In this document: piece by piece, positions 14,316-20,500 of the stretch
How the letters are laid out: every line of letters starts with the position of its first letter
Position numbering within the stretch: position 1 is the first letter of the stretch
Source of the DNA: Paracoccaceae bacterium
Lineage (GTDB): Bacteria > Pseudomonadota > Alphaproteobacteria > Rhodobacterales > Rhodobacteraceae
Assembly: GCA_020832655.1 (NCBI GenBank)
Contig: JAFIEF010000021.1
Coordinates: 1 to 49,334 of the forward strand
DNA length: 49,334 bases
Direction of reading: 5' to 3'
Made by a program: the position numbers and the translations under genes
Notes under the pieces: generated by a model
Databases searched by the model: none
The model's input: the letters and a program-made list of their open reading frames with translations, nothing else
Told to the model about the DNA's origin: nothing

Positions 14316-15584
14316 TCACTCGGCTGCGAGTTCCCGCACGCCCGGTTCGGCCAGTGCTTCCAGATGTTGGGCAATGGCGGCGGCGATCTGCGGCTTGCCA
14401 TCAATTGTCATGACGCCGCCGCGCGTGACCATCAGCGCACGCTGCTCGCGCCCTTTGGTGTCCTGCCCGCGCGTGGCCACCACCAGCCCGGCGCGGTCCA
14501 GCCGTTTTGCGGCCACGCGCACAAGCTCGTCCTCTGACACATCTTCCAGATACTTGAACGCCACCGCATGCATCTGCGGGGCGGCGTTCATGGCCAGATC
14601 GATCACCTTTTCCGTGGGGCGCAGCGGCAGCATGTAATCGTCAGCCCCGGACACGATCTTGCCCGCCACCATCTGACGCGGGCGGTAATCGGCGACACCT
14701 GCCGAAAACACCGTGGCAAACAGCCCCGATTGCACCCGTTCCAGAACCATGTCGCGATAGGCGTCATAATTGCGGGCAATCGAAAGCTGCATCGGCGCCG
14801 AGGGTCGCCATGCGCCATCGCCCAGCAGCAATTCGGCATCCGCGCCGCGCCATGTCAGCTCTTCGGCAATCGCAGCCCCCAACCGCCCGCGAAAGCGGTT
14901 GACGATGCGGCGCACATTGTCGATTTCCACTGGCGTCGGCCCGGCCGTGACCAGAATGCGCTTGCCCTTCAGCGCCGAGCCCGACAGCGCGCGACCGACC
15001 GCGGCGCACAGCACTGCCGTATCGGGCAGGTTGTGCTTGCCATAAGCATCGCGCGGGGCAATGAAGCGCACGCCCTGCGCGGCCAGCTTGCGCGCATTGC
15101 CGACAAGCTGGGTGTTGTGCATGGAACCATGCATGGTGGGGGCAACCAGAACCTGCGTGCGCCCCTGTTCCATCCGCCCCAGCGCCGAAATCAGCGCCGA
15201 GGTGACAAGCGTGTCGCCAATACCCGCCGCCATCTTGGCGATGGTGTTATGCGTGGCGGGGGCAACCAGATAGGCGTCAAAGGGCGCGTCATCGCTCAGA
15301 TGTTCGGCGCGCCATGTCAGGGCTTCCACCACCTGCCCCAGACAGGCCCATTCCAGCGCATCGCGCGCGACATAGCGCAGCGCATCCGCACTGGCAAAGG
15401 CCACCACATCGGCCCCGTGCCTGCGCAGCCCGCGCGCGATCTGCGGGGCTTTCATCGCGGCAATGCCGCCGGTCAGTAACAGCGCGATGCGCTTGCCTGC
15501 CAGCCTGTCGCTGGCCACGGGCACATCATGATCCCCCATGACCGAAGGCGTCGGCGCCGAGAAATCCCAGTCAAACTGCGTCAT
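14316..15584 (-). CDS. Divergent CoaBC-like flavoprotein of unknown reaction
   Basis: A 422-residue protein with the domain order of CoaBC (Dfp). Residues ~28-190 form an HFCD flavoprotein domain and ~206-422 a CoaB-like domain. FMN-domain landmarks remain: LLTGGIAAMKAP (37-48), His95 in AEHLSD and PATHNT (109-114). The substrate motif PxMNxxMW reads PTMHGSMH (149-156), and the cysteine flap (ACGExGxGR) is replaced by AYGKHNLPD near 180. In the CoaB-like half, the usual DPVRFISNRSSGKMG region reads DNVRRIVNRFRGRLG (222-236). The Lys-rich KIKK region reads GKIVSG. These losses argue against a role in coenzyme A synthesis, which is presumably served by another locus. ATG at 15584 overlaps the stop of the transglutaminase-like gene, so the two are coupled. 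Confidence 0.78.
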   Translation of the reverse strand: MTQFDWDFSAPTPSVMGDHDVPVASDRLAGKRIALLLTGGIAAMKAPQIARGLRRHGADVVAFASADALRYVARDALEWACLGQVVEALTWRAEHLSDDAPFDAYLVAPATHNTIAKMAAGIGDTLVTSALISALGRMEQGRTQVLVAPTMHGSMHNTQLVGNARKLAAQGVRFIAPRDAYGKHNLPDTAVLCAAVGRALSGSALKGKRILVTAGPTPVEIDNVRRIVNRFRGRLGAAIAEELTWRGADAELLLGDGAWRPSAPMQLSIARNYDAYRDMVLERVQSGLFATVFSAGVADYRPRQMVAGKIVSGADDYMLPLRPTEKVIDLAMNAAPQMHAVAFKYLEDVSEDELVRVAAKRLDRAGLVVATRGQDTKGREQRALMVTRGGVMTIDGKPQIAAAIAQHLEALAEPGVRELAAE

Positions 15585-16684
15585 GCGCGGCGTTCCGTGT
15601 CTTGTTGTGCTGGCTCTGCCTGTTGCAGATCCGGGTGATCGGGCGCGACCCATTTCTGCCAGCAGTTCTGCGCGCGGTCCAGCCTTGTGTTCAGCGCCTC
15701 GAACTGCATCGGCGAAAAGCGGGATTTCTTGCCCATCTCCTCGTTCAGATGCTCGGTTACCGGAATGTCGAACACGTCCACGCCATTATAGTCATGGGTC
15801 GGGCTGTAGGGTTTGCCAGTGGCCAGATGCGCAGGCAGCAAATGATCATAGCCTGCGAATTGTTCCAGATAGATGCCCATCGCCTCGTCGGTATAAGAGC
15901 TGTCGGCGGCGTGCCAGCGCCCATCGAGTTTGACGACACCGAAATAATGGCGCACCACAGGGCGCATCAGCGCCAGCCAGGCTTCGGGCATAAGATTGCC
16001 CAGAACCTTCATTTCCATCGGAATCTCGGTAAAGCCGGCCTCCAGCCCGCAGGCGCGCAGAAGCGCGGCTTGCAGATTTGCCTTGGTGGTGCACATCCCG
16101 ACCCCGCGTTCCAGCGTGGTCGAGGCATATTCCTGCCATGTGCCAAAGCGATAGGGCATCACTTGCACGAATTTGAACACGGCCTGTGCGGTTGCTTCCT
16201 CGGTGGTGCGCAGCAGCCGCGCGGCTTGCCGTTCGATCAGCGGATGCTTGAGATTGCACAGCGTTTCGGGGGCGGGCAGATCATCGGGCGGGGTTGCCGC
16301 AGTAAGCGCGCGGGCAGAGGCGTCAAGCGCCGATTCGATGGCCTTGCGCAAGTCCCTGCCAGCCTGTCGTGACAGGCTAGGGGCCGACCTGTCCAGCGAC
16401 CACAGCAGTGCGGGCGCGTCTTTCGGGGTCAGTTCTGACTCGAGTTCGGTGAAGTGACAACCGGGGCTGAGCCAGCCCAGATCATGCAGCAATACACCCT
16501 TGAGTAGAATGTGAAGCCGATCATCGGCTTTGACCTTAAGGCTCTGCCCTGGCAGCAGAATCTGGATGCGCCCATGTGGGAAGGCCAGCGATGCATCGCT
16601 GCCGAGATAAAGCCCTACCAAGCTGTCAAAAAACAGCCTTTCATGTTCGTTTTGGTTAAGTGTGAAATCGAACTTCTGCAGCAT
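15581..16684 (-). CDS. Transglutaminase-like (cysteine protease fold) protein
   Basis: A 367-residue cytoplasmic protein; no signal peptide is seen. The C-terminal half has the transglutaminase-core triad. Cys198 lies in RGVGMCTTKANLQAALLRA, His246 in VVRHYFGVVKLDG and Asp261 in RWHAADSSYTD. Residues 1-~100 form a separate beta-rich region with GRIQILLPGQSLKVKADDRL. The family includes peptidases, amidases and cross-linking enzymes, so the substrate is unknown. Its stop overlaps the start of the CoaBC-like gene (ATGA), implying a shared task. The AT-rich 133-bp region upstream contains a perfect inverted repeat. Confidence 0.75.
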   Translation of the reverse strand: MLQKFDFTLNQNEHERLFFDSLVGLYLGSDASLAFPHGRIQILLPGQSLKVKADDRLHILLKGVLLHDLGWLSPGCHFTELESELTPKDAPALLWSLDRSAPSLSRQAGRDLRKAIESALDASARALTAATPPDDLPAPETLCNLKHPLIERQAARLLRTTEEATAQAVFKFVQVMPYRFGTWQEYASTTLERGVGMCTTKANLQAALLRACGLEAGFTEIPMEMKVLGNLMPEAWLALMRPVVRHYFGVVKLDGRWHAADSSYTDEAMGIYLEQFAGYDHLLPAHLATGKPYSPTHDYNGVDVFDIPVTEHLNEEMGKKSRFSPMQFEALNTRLDRAQNCWQKWVAPDHPDLQQAEPAQQDTERRA

Positions 16685-16817: not shown

Positions 16818-17558
16818 TCATAGTGGGAACAAAGCGACACGCCCTGCCGGTGTCAGCACAAAGATTTTGCGCCCCTCGATTACCACTGCGGTCAGCGGTC
16901 CGTCATAGCCTGCCCGGCTGTCGATATTGACGCGGTTGCGGTAATGCGTCGGCGCAGGAATTGCGGTGTGGCCATGCACGACCAGCGCGCCATGATCGCG
17001 TGTATCCATCAGGAAGGGATCGCGAATCCACAGCAGATCCTGCTCTTGCTGCTGTTCCAGCGGGATGCCGGGGCGAATGCCTGCATGCACGAACAGCACC
17101 TCCCCGCGCTGGTGCAACAAGGGCAAATCCTGCAAAAAGGCGATATCCTGTGGCGGCACGGCGGCGCGCGCATCTTCGCGCACGCGCTTGATATGGAATG
17201 CGGTGGGGCGGAACAGCCCGTAGGACATCAGCGTTGCCGCCCCGCCGACGAGCGGGTGAAGATAGGTGATTTCCGCGTTCATCCGGGGGTCACGCCAGTC
17301 CGGCGTGGTCACGAAGCGTTCGAACAGGCGGTCATGATTGCCCTTCAGCACGATCCAGGGCGCGCCACCGGCAATGCCTTCGCGCAGAAAGCGGATCACG
17401 CCCGCGCTGTCGGGGCCACGATCAACCAGATCGCCCAGATGCACCACCGGCGCGTCCATATCGCGGCAGGCGCGGCGGTCGGCCTCGATCAGCGCATGGG
17501 CACCCTGCAACAGCGCCAACTGGCCGTGGATATCGCCAATGGCGTAGCTGCGCGTCAT
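16818..17558 (-). CDS. PPP-family metallophosphatase (ApaH/serine-threonine phosphatase-like)
   Basis: A 246-residue calcineurin-like phosphoesterase. The metal-binding motifs are in order: GDIHG (8-12), GDLVDRG (42-48), GNHD (73-76) and later FVHAGIRPG and VVHGHT. This set is shared by bacterial PPP phosphatases and diadenosine tetraphosphatases. The size fits the small bacterial type, and the substrate cannot be settled from sequence. There are 61 bases between its start and the serA stop, which contain a strong hairpin, so it is probably a separate unit from serC-serA. Confidence 0.85.
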   Translation of the reverse strand: MTRSYAIGDIHGQLALLQGAHALIEADRRACRDMDAPVVHLGDLVDRGPDSAGVIRFLREGIAGGAPWIVLKGNHDRLFERFVTTPDWRDPRMNAEITYLHPLVGGAATLMSYGLFRPTAFHIKRVREDARAAVPPQDIAFLQDLPLLHQRGEVLFVHAGIRPGIPLEQQQEQDLLWIRDPFLMDTRDHGALVVHGHTAIPAPTHYRNRVNIDSRAGYDGPLTAVVIEGRKIFVLTPAGRVALFPL

Positions 17559-17581
17559 CTCGCCCCCGTCATCTGGCGGAA

Positions 17582-17615
17582 CTGCCTGCCCGAGATCGAG
17601 GATTCGGGCAGGCAG
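17582..17615 (-). terminator. serA terminator hairpin
   Basis: A 12-bp perfect stem: CTGCCTGCCCGA (17582-17593) with TCGGGCAGGCAG (17604-17615), loop of ten bases. It lies immediately after the serA stop on the leftward strand. The T-run is weak, so it may be only partly effective. Confidence 0.6.
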
Positions 17616-17619
17616 CTTG

Positions 17620-19215
17620 TCAGTTCACATCGAATTGCAGCGGGCGCACCTGCCGGAACATGCCCGTCGCGCGCAGCTTGTTCAAGACCGCATCCGGTGC
17701 CGCGTCATCCAGATACAGCAGCGCAATCGCATCCTTGCCCTGATCCGACCGCCCAAGGGTGAAGTTCGCGATATTGACGCCGTTTTCGCCCATCGTCTGG
17801 CCCAGCGTGCCGATGATGCCGGGCACATCATCATTGGTGGTATACAGCATGTGCTGCCCGACCTCGGCATCGATGGTGATGCCCTTGATCTGGATGAAGC
17901 GCGGCTTGCCATCGGAAAACACTGTCCCCGCGATGGAGCGTTCGCGGCTGTCGGTCACGACGGTCAGCTTGATATAGGCATCAAACACGCCCGATTTCCC
18001 TTGCGTGGTGGTGGCAATCTGCACCCCGCGTTCCTTGGCCACGACCGGGGCCGAGACCATGTTCACATCGGGGTTGGTGGCCTTCATGATCCCGGCAATC
18101 ACCGCACAGCCAAGCGCGTCCAGATTCATTTCGGCGACATGCCCGTCATAAAGGATGTTGATCGCCTTGATCGGCTCATCGGTCAACTGTCCGGCAAACG
18201 CGCCCAGATGCGCGGCCAGTTTCAGCCACGGCCCCATGATGCGCGCCTCTTCGGCTGTGACCGACGGCATGTTCAGCGCGTTCTGTACTGCGCCATCCAG
18301 CAGATAGTCGGACATCTGTTCGGCCACTTGCAGCGCCACATTTTCCTGCGCCTCGGTGGTGGATGCGCCCAGATGCGGGGTAACGACAACATTGGGCAGG
18401 CCGAAAAGCGGGCTTTCGGTGGCGGGTTCGACCTGAAACACGTCAAAGCCTGCGCCTGCGACATGACCCGCCTTGATCGCCTCTGCCAGAGCGGTTTCAT
18501 CGACCAGCCCGCCGCGCGCACAGTTTATGATGCGCACGCCCTTCCTGGTCTTGGCAATGTTCTCGGCCGACAGGATATTGCGGGTCTTGTCGGTCAGCGG
18601 CACATGCAGGGTAATGAAATCGGCGCGCGCCAGCAATTCGTCCAGTTCGACCTTGGTCACGCCCAGCTTGGTGGCGCGTTCTTCCGACAGGAAGGGGTCA
18701 TAGGCGATAACTCTCATGCGCAGCCCGACCGCGCGTTCGCAGACGATGCCACCGATATTGCCCGCACCGATCACGCCCAGCGTCTTGCCCGTCAATTCGG
18801 TGCCCATGAAGCGCGATTTTTCCCATTTGCCCGCATGGGTAGAGGCGTTGGCCTCGGGGATCTGGCGCGCAACCGCCATCATCAGCGAAATCGCATGCTC
18901 TGCGGTGGTGACAGAGTTGCCGAAAGGCGTGTTCATTACGATCACCCCTTTTTTCGACGCTGCGGGGATATCGACATTGTCCACGCCGATCCCGGCGCGG
19001 CCCACAACTTTCAGATTGGTGGCGGCGTCCAGAACCTTTTCGGTGACCTTGGTGGCCGAGCGGATCGCCAGCCCGTCATAATCACCGATGACTTCCAGCA
19101 GCTTGTCCTTGTCCTTGCCGATGGACGGGTCAAAGGTGACATCGATGCCGCGGTCGCGGAAGATCTGCACAGCAGTTTCAGACAGTTTGTCAGAGACCAG
19201 AACCTTGGGTGCCAT
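17620..19215 (-). CDS. serA: D-3-phosphoglycerate dehydrogenase
   Basis: Oxidises 3-phosphoglycerate to 3-phosphohydroxypyruvate with NAD+, the first step of the phosphorylated serine pathway. The 531-residue protein is the long form. Its catalytic/NAD domain has the Rossmann motif GAGNIGG (150-156), Arg234 (CARGGLVDE), Glu263 and His281 (TPHLGAST). An intervening ASB domain covers ~320-450, and a C-terminal ACT domain (~455-531) suits feedback control by serine. ATG at 19215 has AAGGAG about nine bases upstream. It follows serC with a 72-bp gap that contains a hairpin, so it is probably co-transcribed. Confidence 0.97.
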   Translation of the reverse strand: MAPKVLVSDKLSETAVQIFRDRGIDVTFDPSIGKDKDKLLEVIGDYDGLAIRSATKVTEKVLDAATNLKVVGRAGIGVDNVDIPAASKKGVIVMNTPFGNSVTTAEHAISLMMAVARQIPEANASTHAGKWEKSRFMGTELTGKTLGVIGAGNIGGIVCERAVGLRMRVIAYDPFLSEERATKLGVTKVELDELLARADFITLHVPLTDKTRNILSAENIAKTRKGVRIINCARGGLVDETALAEAIKAGHVAGAGFDVFQVEPATESPLFGLPNVVVTPHLGASTTEAQENVALQVAEQMSDYLLDGAVQNALNMPSVTAEEARIMGPWLKLAAHLGAFAGQLTDEPIKAINILYDGHVAEMNLDALGCAVIAGIMKATNPDVNMVSAPVVAKERGVQIATTTQGKSGVFDAYIKLTVVTDSRERSIAGTVFSDGKPRFIQIKGITIDAEVGQHMLYTTNDDVPGIIGTLGQTMGENGVNIANFTLGRSDQGKDAIALLYLDDAAPDAVLNKLRATGMFRQVRPLQFDVN

Positions 19216-19254
19216 GTCAGTGGCTCCTTGCAATGAGATGATATTGGGAAGGCA

Positions 19255-19275
19255 GGCGGCCCGTTGCGGGCCGCC
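19255..19275 (-). terminator. Hairpin between serC and serA
   Basis: GGCGGCCCG (19255-19263) pairs with CGGGCCGCC (19267-19275) across a three-base loop, between the serC stop and serA start. There is no T-run after it on the transcribed strand. It may tune the serC:serA transcript ratio or stabilise the upstream part rather than stop transcription fully. Confidence 0.5.
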
Positions 19276-19287
19276 GCTGATAAGCTG

Positions 19288-20445
19288 TCAGGCCGCGGCC
19301 GAAAGTGCTGCGCGCTCTGTGTGATAGGCCCAGGCCAGCCACGGCATCAGCGCTTCGATATCAGCGGTCTCGACCGTGGCACCGCACCAGATGCGCAGCC
19401 CCGCAGGCGCGTCGCGATAGGCGCCGATATCCAGCGCAACGCCTTCGGCTTCCAGCCGCTTGGCGACCGCCTTGGCGAAAGCCGCGCCATCGGTGATGTC
19501 GGGGTCGGTGAATTTCAGGCACACGCTGGTGGTCGAGGCTGTGGCCGGATCTTCGGCCAGATTGGCGATCCAGTCATTTTCAGCGCAGAAACGGTCGATC
19601 ACGGCGGCATTGGCATCGCAGCGCGCAATCAGCGCGGGCAGCCCGCCGATATCGCGTGCCCAGTCCAGCGCCAGCAGGTAATCTTCCACCGCCAGCATGG
19701 AAGGTGTGTTGATGGTCTCGCCCTTGAAAATGCCCTCGATCAGCTTGCCGCCCTTGGTCAGCCGGAAGATCTTGGGCAGCGGCCATGCGGGGGTATGGCT
19801 TTCCAGCCGTTCGACCGCGCGGGGCGACAGGATCAGCATGCCATGCGCGGCCTCGCCGCCCATGACCTTCTGCCATGAAAAGGTCACGACATCGAGCTTG
19901 TCCCAGGGCAATTCCATCGCAAAGGCGGCCGAGGTTGCGTCGCAGATCGTCAGCCCCTTGCGGTCTGCCGGGATCATCTCTCCATTAGGCATCCGCACGC
20001 CGCTGGTAGTGCCGTTCCAGGTGAACACGACGTCAGTGTCATAGTCAATCGCAGCCATATCGACGATCTGACCATAGTCGGCGGTCTTGACCGCTGCGTC
20101 CAGCTTCAACTGCTTGAGCGCATCTGTCACCCAGCCCGCACCGAAGCTTTCCCAGGCGACCATCGTGACCGGGCGCGCGCCCAGCAGCGACCACATTGCC
20201 ATTTCCACAGCACCCGTGTCGGATGCAGGCACAATGCCGATGCGATAATCCGCGGGCACGCCCAGGATCTCGCGCGTGCCGTCAATCGCGGCTTTCAGCT
20301 TTTCCTTGCCGATAGCAGCGCGATGCGAGCGGCCCAACGGGGCGTCAGCCAGCTTGGCAAGCTCGAATGTGGGGATCTTGGCGCAGGGGCCAGACGAAAA
20401 GCGCGGGTTTGCCGGGCGCTTGGCCGGTTGTGCAGTCACAGTCAT
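19288..20445 (-). CDS. serC: Phosphoserine aminotransferase
   Basis: PLP enzyme that converts 3-phosphohydroxypyruvate and glutamate to phosphoserine and 2-oxoglutarate, directly following SerA in the pathway. It has 385 residues and belongs to the alphaproteobacterial type of SerC. The N-terminal stretch is [13 protein letters not shown]. The PLP lysine is Lys193 ([15 protein letters not shown]), with the ring-stacking and Asp region at [12 protein letters not shown] at 20445 has AAGGATACC in front. It is first gene of the serC-serA unit, with a structured leader upstream. Confidence 0.96.
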
Positions 20446-20500
20446 GGTATCCTTCCAGATAATCGCCCTTCGTTGGGGAAGGGTGTCCCGCTGACGCACT
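20446..20500 (-). promoter_or_regulatory. Candidate serC leader RNA motif
   Basis: Directly upstream of serC, the leader contains a perfect 6-bp hairpin: CCCTTC/GAAGGG at 20466-20483, with a six-base loop. An A/T-containing spacer and the ribosome site follow. A conserved serC RNA motif has been described in the same place in alphaproteobacteria, and position and lineage fit it. I cannot check the consensus here, so this is a candidate only. Confidence 0.45.

Follow-up and report, generated by a model that had tools for sequence, protein, structure and literature searches.

The peptide decarboxylases EpiD, MrsD, CypD and TvaF of the HFCD family act on precursor peptides and have no CoaB half. 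For AtHal3a, the active-site His, the Asn and Met of the motif PxMNxxMW, and a Cys were reported to be needed for the two half-reactions (PMC9604783). The split PPCDC of yeast, Hal3/Cab3, includes a subunit with the His and without the Cys or PxMNxxMW, and needs a second, Cys-bearing subunit (PMC9604783). In bifunctional CoaBC (Dfp; TIGR00521; structure 6tgv), the lysines of K-x-K-K and Asp281 contact cytidine triphosphate (CTP) or its metal, and few exceptions to K-x-K-K are described in bacteria (PMC7794376). The monofunctional streptococcal CoaB (TIGR02114, 2gk4) is a solved chain of 232 residues that has no fused CoaC and keeps the TxE motif. In this work, we analysed a stretch of 49,334 nucleotides from a Paracoccaceae bacterium (contig JAFIEF010000021.1, assembly GCA_020832655.1; hereafter the window), which carries the gene of a CoaC-CoaB-type flavoprotein (FL) next to that of a transglutaminase-like protein (TG). 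We consider it probable that FL is an alternative bifunctional CoaBC, in which the textbook active site has been replaced, with TG regulating or feeding the pathway.

The two open reading frames, with their lengths, strands and ATGA overlap, are as given in a previous sequence-only reading of this DNA, and FL does carry PATHNT, His95, PTMHGSMH, AYGKHNLPD and NRFRGRLG. Pfam also bore out the CoaC-then-CoaB order, with a Flavoprotein match (PF02441; E 4.1e-20, 72.4 bits against a cut-off of 22.7) followed by DFP (E 4.3e-24). In an alignment of 92 FL and 67 canonical rows, the active-site His is present throughout (H95; 92/92 and 67/67). At the Asn column of PxMNxxMW, all 67 canonical proteins have Asn and all 92 FL proteins have His (His152), and H156 is likewise found in 92/92 FL rows. 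The flap differs as well, since residues 176-190 of FL hold no Cys (0/92), whereas 66 of the 67 canonical proteins have one in the stretch aligned to 174-190; FL has G182 and K183 there in 92/92 rows and N185 in 90/92. A110 and T111 of the FMN (flavin mononucleotide) motif are kept in 92/92 FL rows. Compared with bifunctional CoaBC, FL also has an additional N-terminal segment, GDHDV, in which D18 occurs in 92/92 rows, V21 in 90/92 and H19 in 72/92 (R in the other 20); here the canonical proteins show varied residues or gaps.

In the CoaB half, FL and canonical proteins alike have R225, D299, K309 and F343 throughout (92/92 and 67/67), the Glu of the GTxE motif is replaced by V, A, S or T in FL, and K326 (92/92) stands where the canonical proteins have Asp (67/67). 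By our own numbering match, R225, D299 and K-x-K-K of FL correspond to Arg207, Asp281 and K-x-K-K of M. smegmatis, the roles of which are described in PMC7794376. The loss of the KIKK lysines, noted earlier from the sequence, is correct for the last one, which is S or T in 92/92 FL rows, but not for the first, K309; the middle K is kept in 9/92. Streptococcal CoaB 2gk4 reads KISS at this site.

Searching the genome collection with an FL alignment gave 151 relatives; the best 80 of the 151 were kept, and these 80 loci were found through the peptides MHG[ST]MHN or TGGIAAMK. Going by record titles, the family is spread over about nine phyla. In a tree of 84 proteins, built by a quick method and including some long branches, 58 FL and 26 canonical rows fall on opposite sides (SH-aLRT 100), placing FL outside the canonical CoaBC clade; a position within it would have refuted the sequence-only reading. 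Scores against an FL profile do not overlap either, with 408-539 bits for FL and 55-144 bits for canonical proteins (90 loci), and later rows reaching down to 387 and 49 bits, respectively. Identity between FL and canonical proteins of the same bacterial family is mostly 30-39% over matched stretches. Against the NCBIfam CoaBC model TIGR00521 (cut-off 219.7), the FL of the window falls below the threshold with 184.5 bits, as do four of seven other FL proteins; the remaining three (L119, L131 and L145) are above it and would therefore be named CoaBC. The top structural match of the high-confidence FL model is full-length CoaBC, and its CoaC half, which shares the FMN-domain fold of the peptide decarboxylases, matches EpiD, AtHal3 and human PPCDC.

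Several other explanations were rejected. Chance or a frame artefact does not agree with the conservation of FL over so many phyla, the presence of the pair in several groups, the fixation of the altered residues across the family, or the joint occurrence of both genes in every genus genome with either. A decaying pseudogene is contradicted by the same fixed residues and by FL being better conserved than TG (74-84% against 40-68% identity). FL is not a plain UbiX (12 bits against the TIGR00421 cut-off of 108.9) nor a plain decarboxylase of ribosomally synthesized and post-translationally modified peptides (RiPPs; 20.4 bits against the CypD cut-off of 215). As for mobile cargo, no FL relative was found in viral contigs (the phage collection was outside that search) and no TG match in plasmids; all 53 plasmid-collection records matching FL are below 60% identity, the 30 listed being at 26-35%.

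The distribution of FL among genomes is what points to its role. Of 27 FL genomes chosen for diversity from the 80 loci, 19 have no DFP-domain protein besides FL. Seventeen of these 19, including two that are complete chromosomes according to their record titles (L145 and L147), were scanned for the Flavoprotein domain: FL was alone in nine and accompanied by a single other protein in eight, UbiX in all eight, so that canonical CoaC was found in none of the 17. CoaE, a later step of coenzyme A (CoA) synthesis, was detected in 17/19 FL-only genomes and in 20/22 of the genomes searched. A pattern of replacement was seen in 146 cyanobacteria, which by DFP score comprise 130 with the canonical protein (155-249 bits), 12 with FL (99-116 bits), one with a fragment (G591) and three with none. 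The FL profile confirmed all 12 FL cases, one of them the centre of the draw, and was applied to 33 of the 130 canonical ones; none of the 146 has both proteins (G631 has an extra 21-bit fragment). In Planctomycetota, a DFP protein was found in 94 of 99 genomes; in the centre genome (G548) this is FL alone, and G774, with an FL-like score and length, may be a further case. The sequence-only reading had taken the loss of motifs as a sign of a different reaction. The same motifs in sole-DFP proteins and in place of canonical CoaBC in cyanobacteria argue against this, as does the deletion of the canonical CoaC half in the genus of the window.

Within this genus, TG and FL occur in the same 10 of 37 genomes and neither occurs in the other 27. 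All 10 carriers have a canonical DFP protein, and in six of them the coaBC locus is reduced to its CoaB half (Table 1). Both halves are present in the other four carriers and in 25 FL-free genomes; of the remaining two FL-free genomes, one has its CoaB and CoaC parts on different contigs and the other gave no match. The CoaB-only loci share the same upstream gene (6/6), and a dut-like gene follows in the four looked at. A tblastn search of the six loci with the CoaC half of the CoaBC from the window genome returned only two scraps of 15-18 residues in one of them (E >1), and a whole-genome search at E 0.001 found no canonical CoaC elsewhere in the six, although it was able to pick up an isolated fragment of canonical CoaC (69 bits) in a different genome, G156. 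One apparent CoaB-only case without FL (G019) was discarded, as a contig end cuts the gene. A further genome, from Acidobacteriota (G538), has a stand-alone CoaB-type protein of 255 aa (L315:2413-3180), and the FL encoded elsewhere in it is the only Flavoprotein-domain match.

The FL-only genomes, the cyanobacterial replacement and the CoaC deletion are most simply explained if FL acts as the phosphopantothenoylcysteine decarboxylase despite lacking the catalytic cysteine, which we consider very probable; the altered motifs appear to be another way of carrying out the same reaction. The CoaC half would decarboxylate 4'-phosphopantothenoylcysteine (PPC) to 4'-phosphopantetheine with FMN and His95. 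In this scheme, FMN would oxidise the cysteinyl group of PPC, CO2 would leave and the ene-thiol would be reduced without a cysteine; the His152/His156 pair and Lys183, perhaps together with the N-terminal GDHDV segment, may stand in for the Asn and the flap Cys. In FL-only lineages, FL probably performs both the CoaB and the CoaC steps, while in the proteobacterial clade of the window, where all genomes inspected have a canonical CoaB half, it may act mainly as CoaC. For TG, in which what was once a cyclic-nucleotide sensor is fused to a transglutaminase-like enzyme, the likeliest role is to control FL or to supply its pathway. More tentatively, and with somewhat less than an even chance of being right in full, PPC decarboxylation may have two active-site solutions, one with Asn and Cys and the other cysteine-free with His, His and Lys. 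The latter would run CoA synthesis in parts of Cyanobacteria, Planctomycetota, Bdellovibrionota, Acidobacteriota and Thiotrichaceae, and in several lineages would be wired to TG with its ancestral cyclic-nucleotide sensor.

A number of observations weigh against a decarboxylase role for FL. Its activity is predicted from genomes; the Asn and Cys required in AtHal3a are absent from it, and the replacement chemistry is a proposal. The fixity of the His pair was partly built in by the search peptides; nevertheless, both His are present even in the 45 of the 92 FL rows without MHG[ST]MHN, and the picture is the same in the 11 rows from the peptide-free cyanobacterial DFP search. Residue 371 is Thr in 31/31 FL proteins of the TG-linked proteobacterial clade, whereas Asn occupies this column in 54 of the 55 FL rows without TG next door and in 62/67 canonical rows; since Thr371 replaces Asn, the sequence suggests that the CoaB half of the TG-linked clade may be altered. 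Another CoaB Asn, N229, is Ser or Thr in 17 of those 55 rows. The window genome has a complete canonical CoaBC, and FL could do something else there. For the genomes reached through loci, completeness is not stated; in G537 and G552, both FL-only, CoaE went undetected. Finally, the six CoaC-less genomes (Roseibaca clade) form one clade in both trees and therefore count as one event, which, with G538, makes at most two CoaC losses. For this reason, a Fisher test of 6/10 against 0/25 (p 1.3e-4) was set aside and is not used as evidence.

The canonical copy just mentioned, the search for which the sequence-only reading had recommended, lies on contig C105 and retains both PAMNVRMW and ACGEFGPGR; C29 carries a UbiX candidate, the third gene of this genome with a Flavoprotein domain. 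Co-occurrence of this kind is usual where TG is present, a canonical DFP protein being found in 7/8 TG-linked genomes (the exception is the Thiotrichaceae metagenome-assembled genome, MAG, G533), and FL without adjacent TG is alone in 18/20 genomes. Together with the TG linkage itself, the loss of the canonical substrate motifs and the structural closeness of the CoaC half to the RiPP decarboxylases EpiD, MrsD, SpaF and TvaF, it would suit a paralogue working on another substrate, such as the cysteine of a peptide or small molecule, with TG making or cleaving the amide bond. We regard such a paralogue, which is the view of the sequence-only reading, as unlikely, because FL-only genomes, which lack any other CoaB or CoaC, carry these motifs too, because canonical CoaC deletion is confined, in the genus, to FL carriers, and because FL retains a full CoaB half.

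The presence of both proteins in the window genome could also mean that, where canonical CoaBC is present, FL is only a partner in mixed oligomers, contributing His95 while the canonical CoaC contributes Cys and Asn. Yeast Hal3/Cab3 provides a precedent (PMC9604783), and FL, with His95 and without Cys, resembles its Cys-less subunit. However, the 17 scanned FL-only genomes yielded no CoaC partner with a Cys, and neither did the six CoaB-only genomes, whether at coaBC itself or, at E 0.001, elsewhere; we give mixed oligomers only a very slight chance. TG-FL as a bypass module, in which a cysteine-free CoaBC would stay active while oxidation or an inhibitor disables the canonical enzyme, and TG would inactivate an amide inhibitor or act as a stress switch, seems quite improbable. 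Its patchy occurrence as a second copy beside canonical CoaBC, the missing flap Cys and the existence of a CoaBC inhibitor, CJ-15,801 (PMC12172042), are in keeping with a bypass, but FL is the sole enzyme in many genomes, so that a bypass cannot be its only role, and the canonical CoaC loss in the Roseibaca clade suggests that FL is in constant use there.

The association between FL and TG proposed from the sequence extends to other genomes, since all 10 genus genomes with either gene have both (in G174, TG is split over two contigs). Of the two-enzyme system suggested earlier, the close linkage of the two genes and their separateness from canonical CoaBC are upheld; the different reaction assigned to it is not supported, and the amide-bond role proposed for TG is a guess. 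A first scan of genome contigs with the TG of the window alone gave no match. When 390 genomes drawn from the whole order were searched, 86 matched TG at E 0.001, but only seven matches are orthologue-like (E 4e-74 or better), three from the genus and four from other members of the family, the rest being at or below 44 bits; FL lies next door in each of those four. Among the best 80 FL loci, TG is directly upstream on the same strand in 33, with a 4-base overlap in 18/33. The TG-linked taxa, going by record titles, are Rhodobacteraceae, Saccharospirillum, Burkholderiales, KSB1, a Thiotrichaceae bacterium and Rubrivivax, the last with a distant TG. When 32 FL genomes were compared with a TG profile, 17 matched; seven exceed 200 bits, all beside FL, and the others are at or below 62 bits.

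The catalytic part of TG is transglutaminase-like, as first described, with Pfam Transglut_core at 26.9 bits (cut-off 23) and in 30/30 TG members at E 0.1, and the triad Cys198-His246-Asp261 is intact and invariant in alignments of 13, 32 and 30 rows. This is not the whole protein, however, for residues ~8-135, overlooked earlier, have the fold of a cyclic-nucleotide-binding domain. The corresponding Pfam domain, PF00027, is not detected in the TG of the window at E 1, and is found in 4/30 family members at E 0.1. Two distant TG orthologues match this domain. In the orthologues L119:6748-7998 and L123:6704-7993, an intact-looking cyclic-nucleotide-binding domain is fused to the transglutaminase-like domain. 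The folds of the two parts are those of CRP-type cyclic-nucleotide-binding domains (3r6s) and transglutaminase-like cysteine hydrolases (3isr); TG differs from both in combining them. The KSB1 and Thiotrichaceae orthologues contain a stretch that is missing from the TG of the window. A defence system was rejected, as PADLOC has no match for FL and TG; weak Pycsar-type matches of two TG orthologues fall in the cyclic-nucleotide-binding stretch.

FL apparently does its job without the Cys or PxMNxxMW in free-living and endosymbiotic bacteria, and so tests what the chemistry needs. CoaBC is a validated antibacterial target (PMC12172042), and FL could escape inhibitors or annotations that are based on the canonical site. 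Its function is directly testable in the Roseibaca clade, where the canonical CoaC half is lost. The linked TG points to a partner of CoA synthesis not previously known, and its wiring, if true, would represent a new regulatory or catalytic layer of this pathway. A literature search, with most subscription journals outside its reach, turned up no title or abstract that deals with a CoaBC family lacking the Cys, with the altered site or with the FL-TG pair; a Microcystis transcriptome paper names coaBC among its genes (PMC11705957).

Table 1. Features of the FL-TG locus (positions in the window) and stand-alone CoaB loci of the genus
Feature	Position	Strand	Basis or scope
FL, CoaBC-like flavoprotein, 422 aa	14316..15584	-	Open reading frame
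TG, transglutaminase-like, 367 aa	15581..16684	-	Open reading frame and Pfam; stop overlaps FL start as ATGA
FL residues 5-24, family-specific N-terminal extension with GDHDV	15513..15572	-	Alignment conservation
FL CoaC-like FMN domain, residues ~27-200	14985..15506	-	Pfam Flavoprotein match at 31-158 and structural matches
PTMHGSMH, FL residues 149-156, at site of PxMNxxMW	15117..15140	-	Alignment
YGKHN, FL residues 181-185, at site of catalytic-cysteine flap	15030..15044	-	Alignment
FL CoaB-like domain, residues ~203-412	14349..14978	-	
TG N-terminal domain, residues ~8-135, degenerate cyclic-nucleotide-binding-type fold	16280..16663	-	Fold comparison
TG catalytic domain, residues ~140-323, triad C198-H246-D261	15716..16267	-	
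Upstream genes conserved in genus, serC-like to phosphatase-like	16818..20499	-	Order kept in nine other pair-carrying genus genomes
Stand-alone CoaB in place of coaBC	L303:3094-3738, L304:3134-3805, L305:3124-3795, L306:757-1428, L307:3363-4007, L308:3372-4043		Six genus genomes

The genes upstream of TG are presumably phosphatase-like (16818-17558), serA-like (17620-19233) and serC-like (19288-20499). In the nine other pair-carrying genomes that keep the order serC-serA-phosphatase-TG, FL directly follows TG in eight; in G174, FL and the end of TG are on the second contig. Outside the genus, none of the flanking genes tested was seen except for one distant serA match.

Other loci of the family showed peculiarities of their own. 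The FL on a contig assigned to a Gracilibacteria MAG (L125) groups closely with that of the cyanobacterium Hydrococcus (L124), and the contig is probably misbinned. In Rubrivivax albus (L167), the FL branch is very long, and the upstream TG, which is shorter and only distantly related, may represent a separate recruitment of a transglutaminase-like gene. A short TG remnant, a 78-aa frame of 61.6 bits, precedes FL in Candidatus Thiomargarita nelsonii (L126; L282), which suggests either a disrupted TG gene or an assembly error. Planctomycete loci (e.g. L155:6733-9963) have no TG; an RNase D-type gene, unrelated to TG by hhalign (probability 0.2%), is directly upstream of FL in 13 of them (one checked by Pfam), and in ten FL is followed by a small metallophosphoesterase-type gene.

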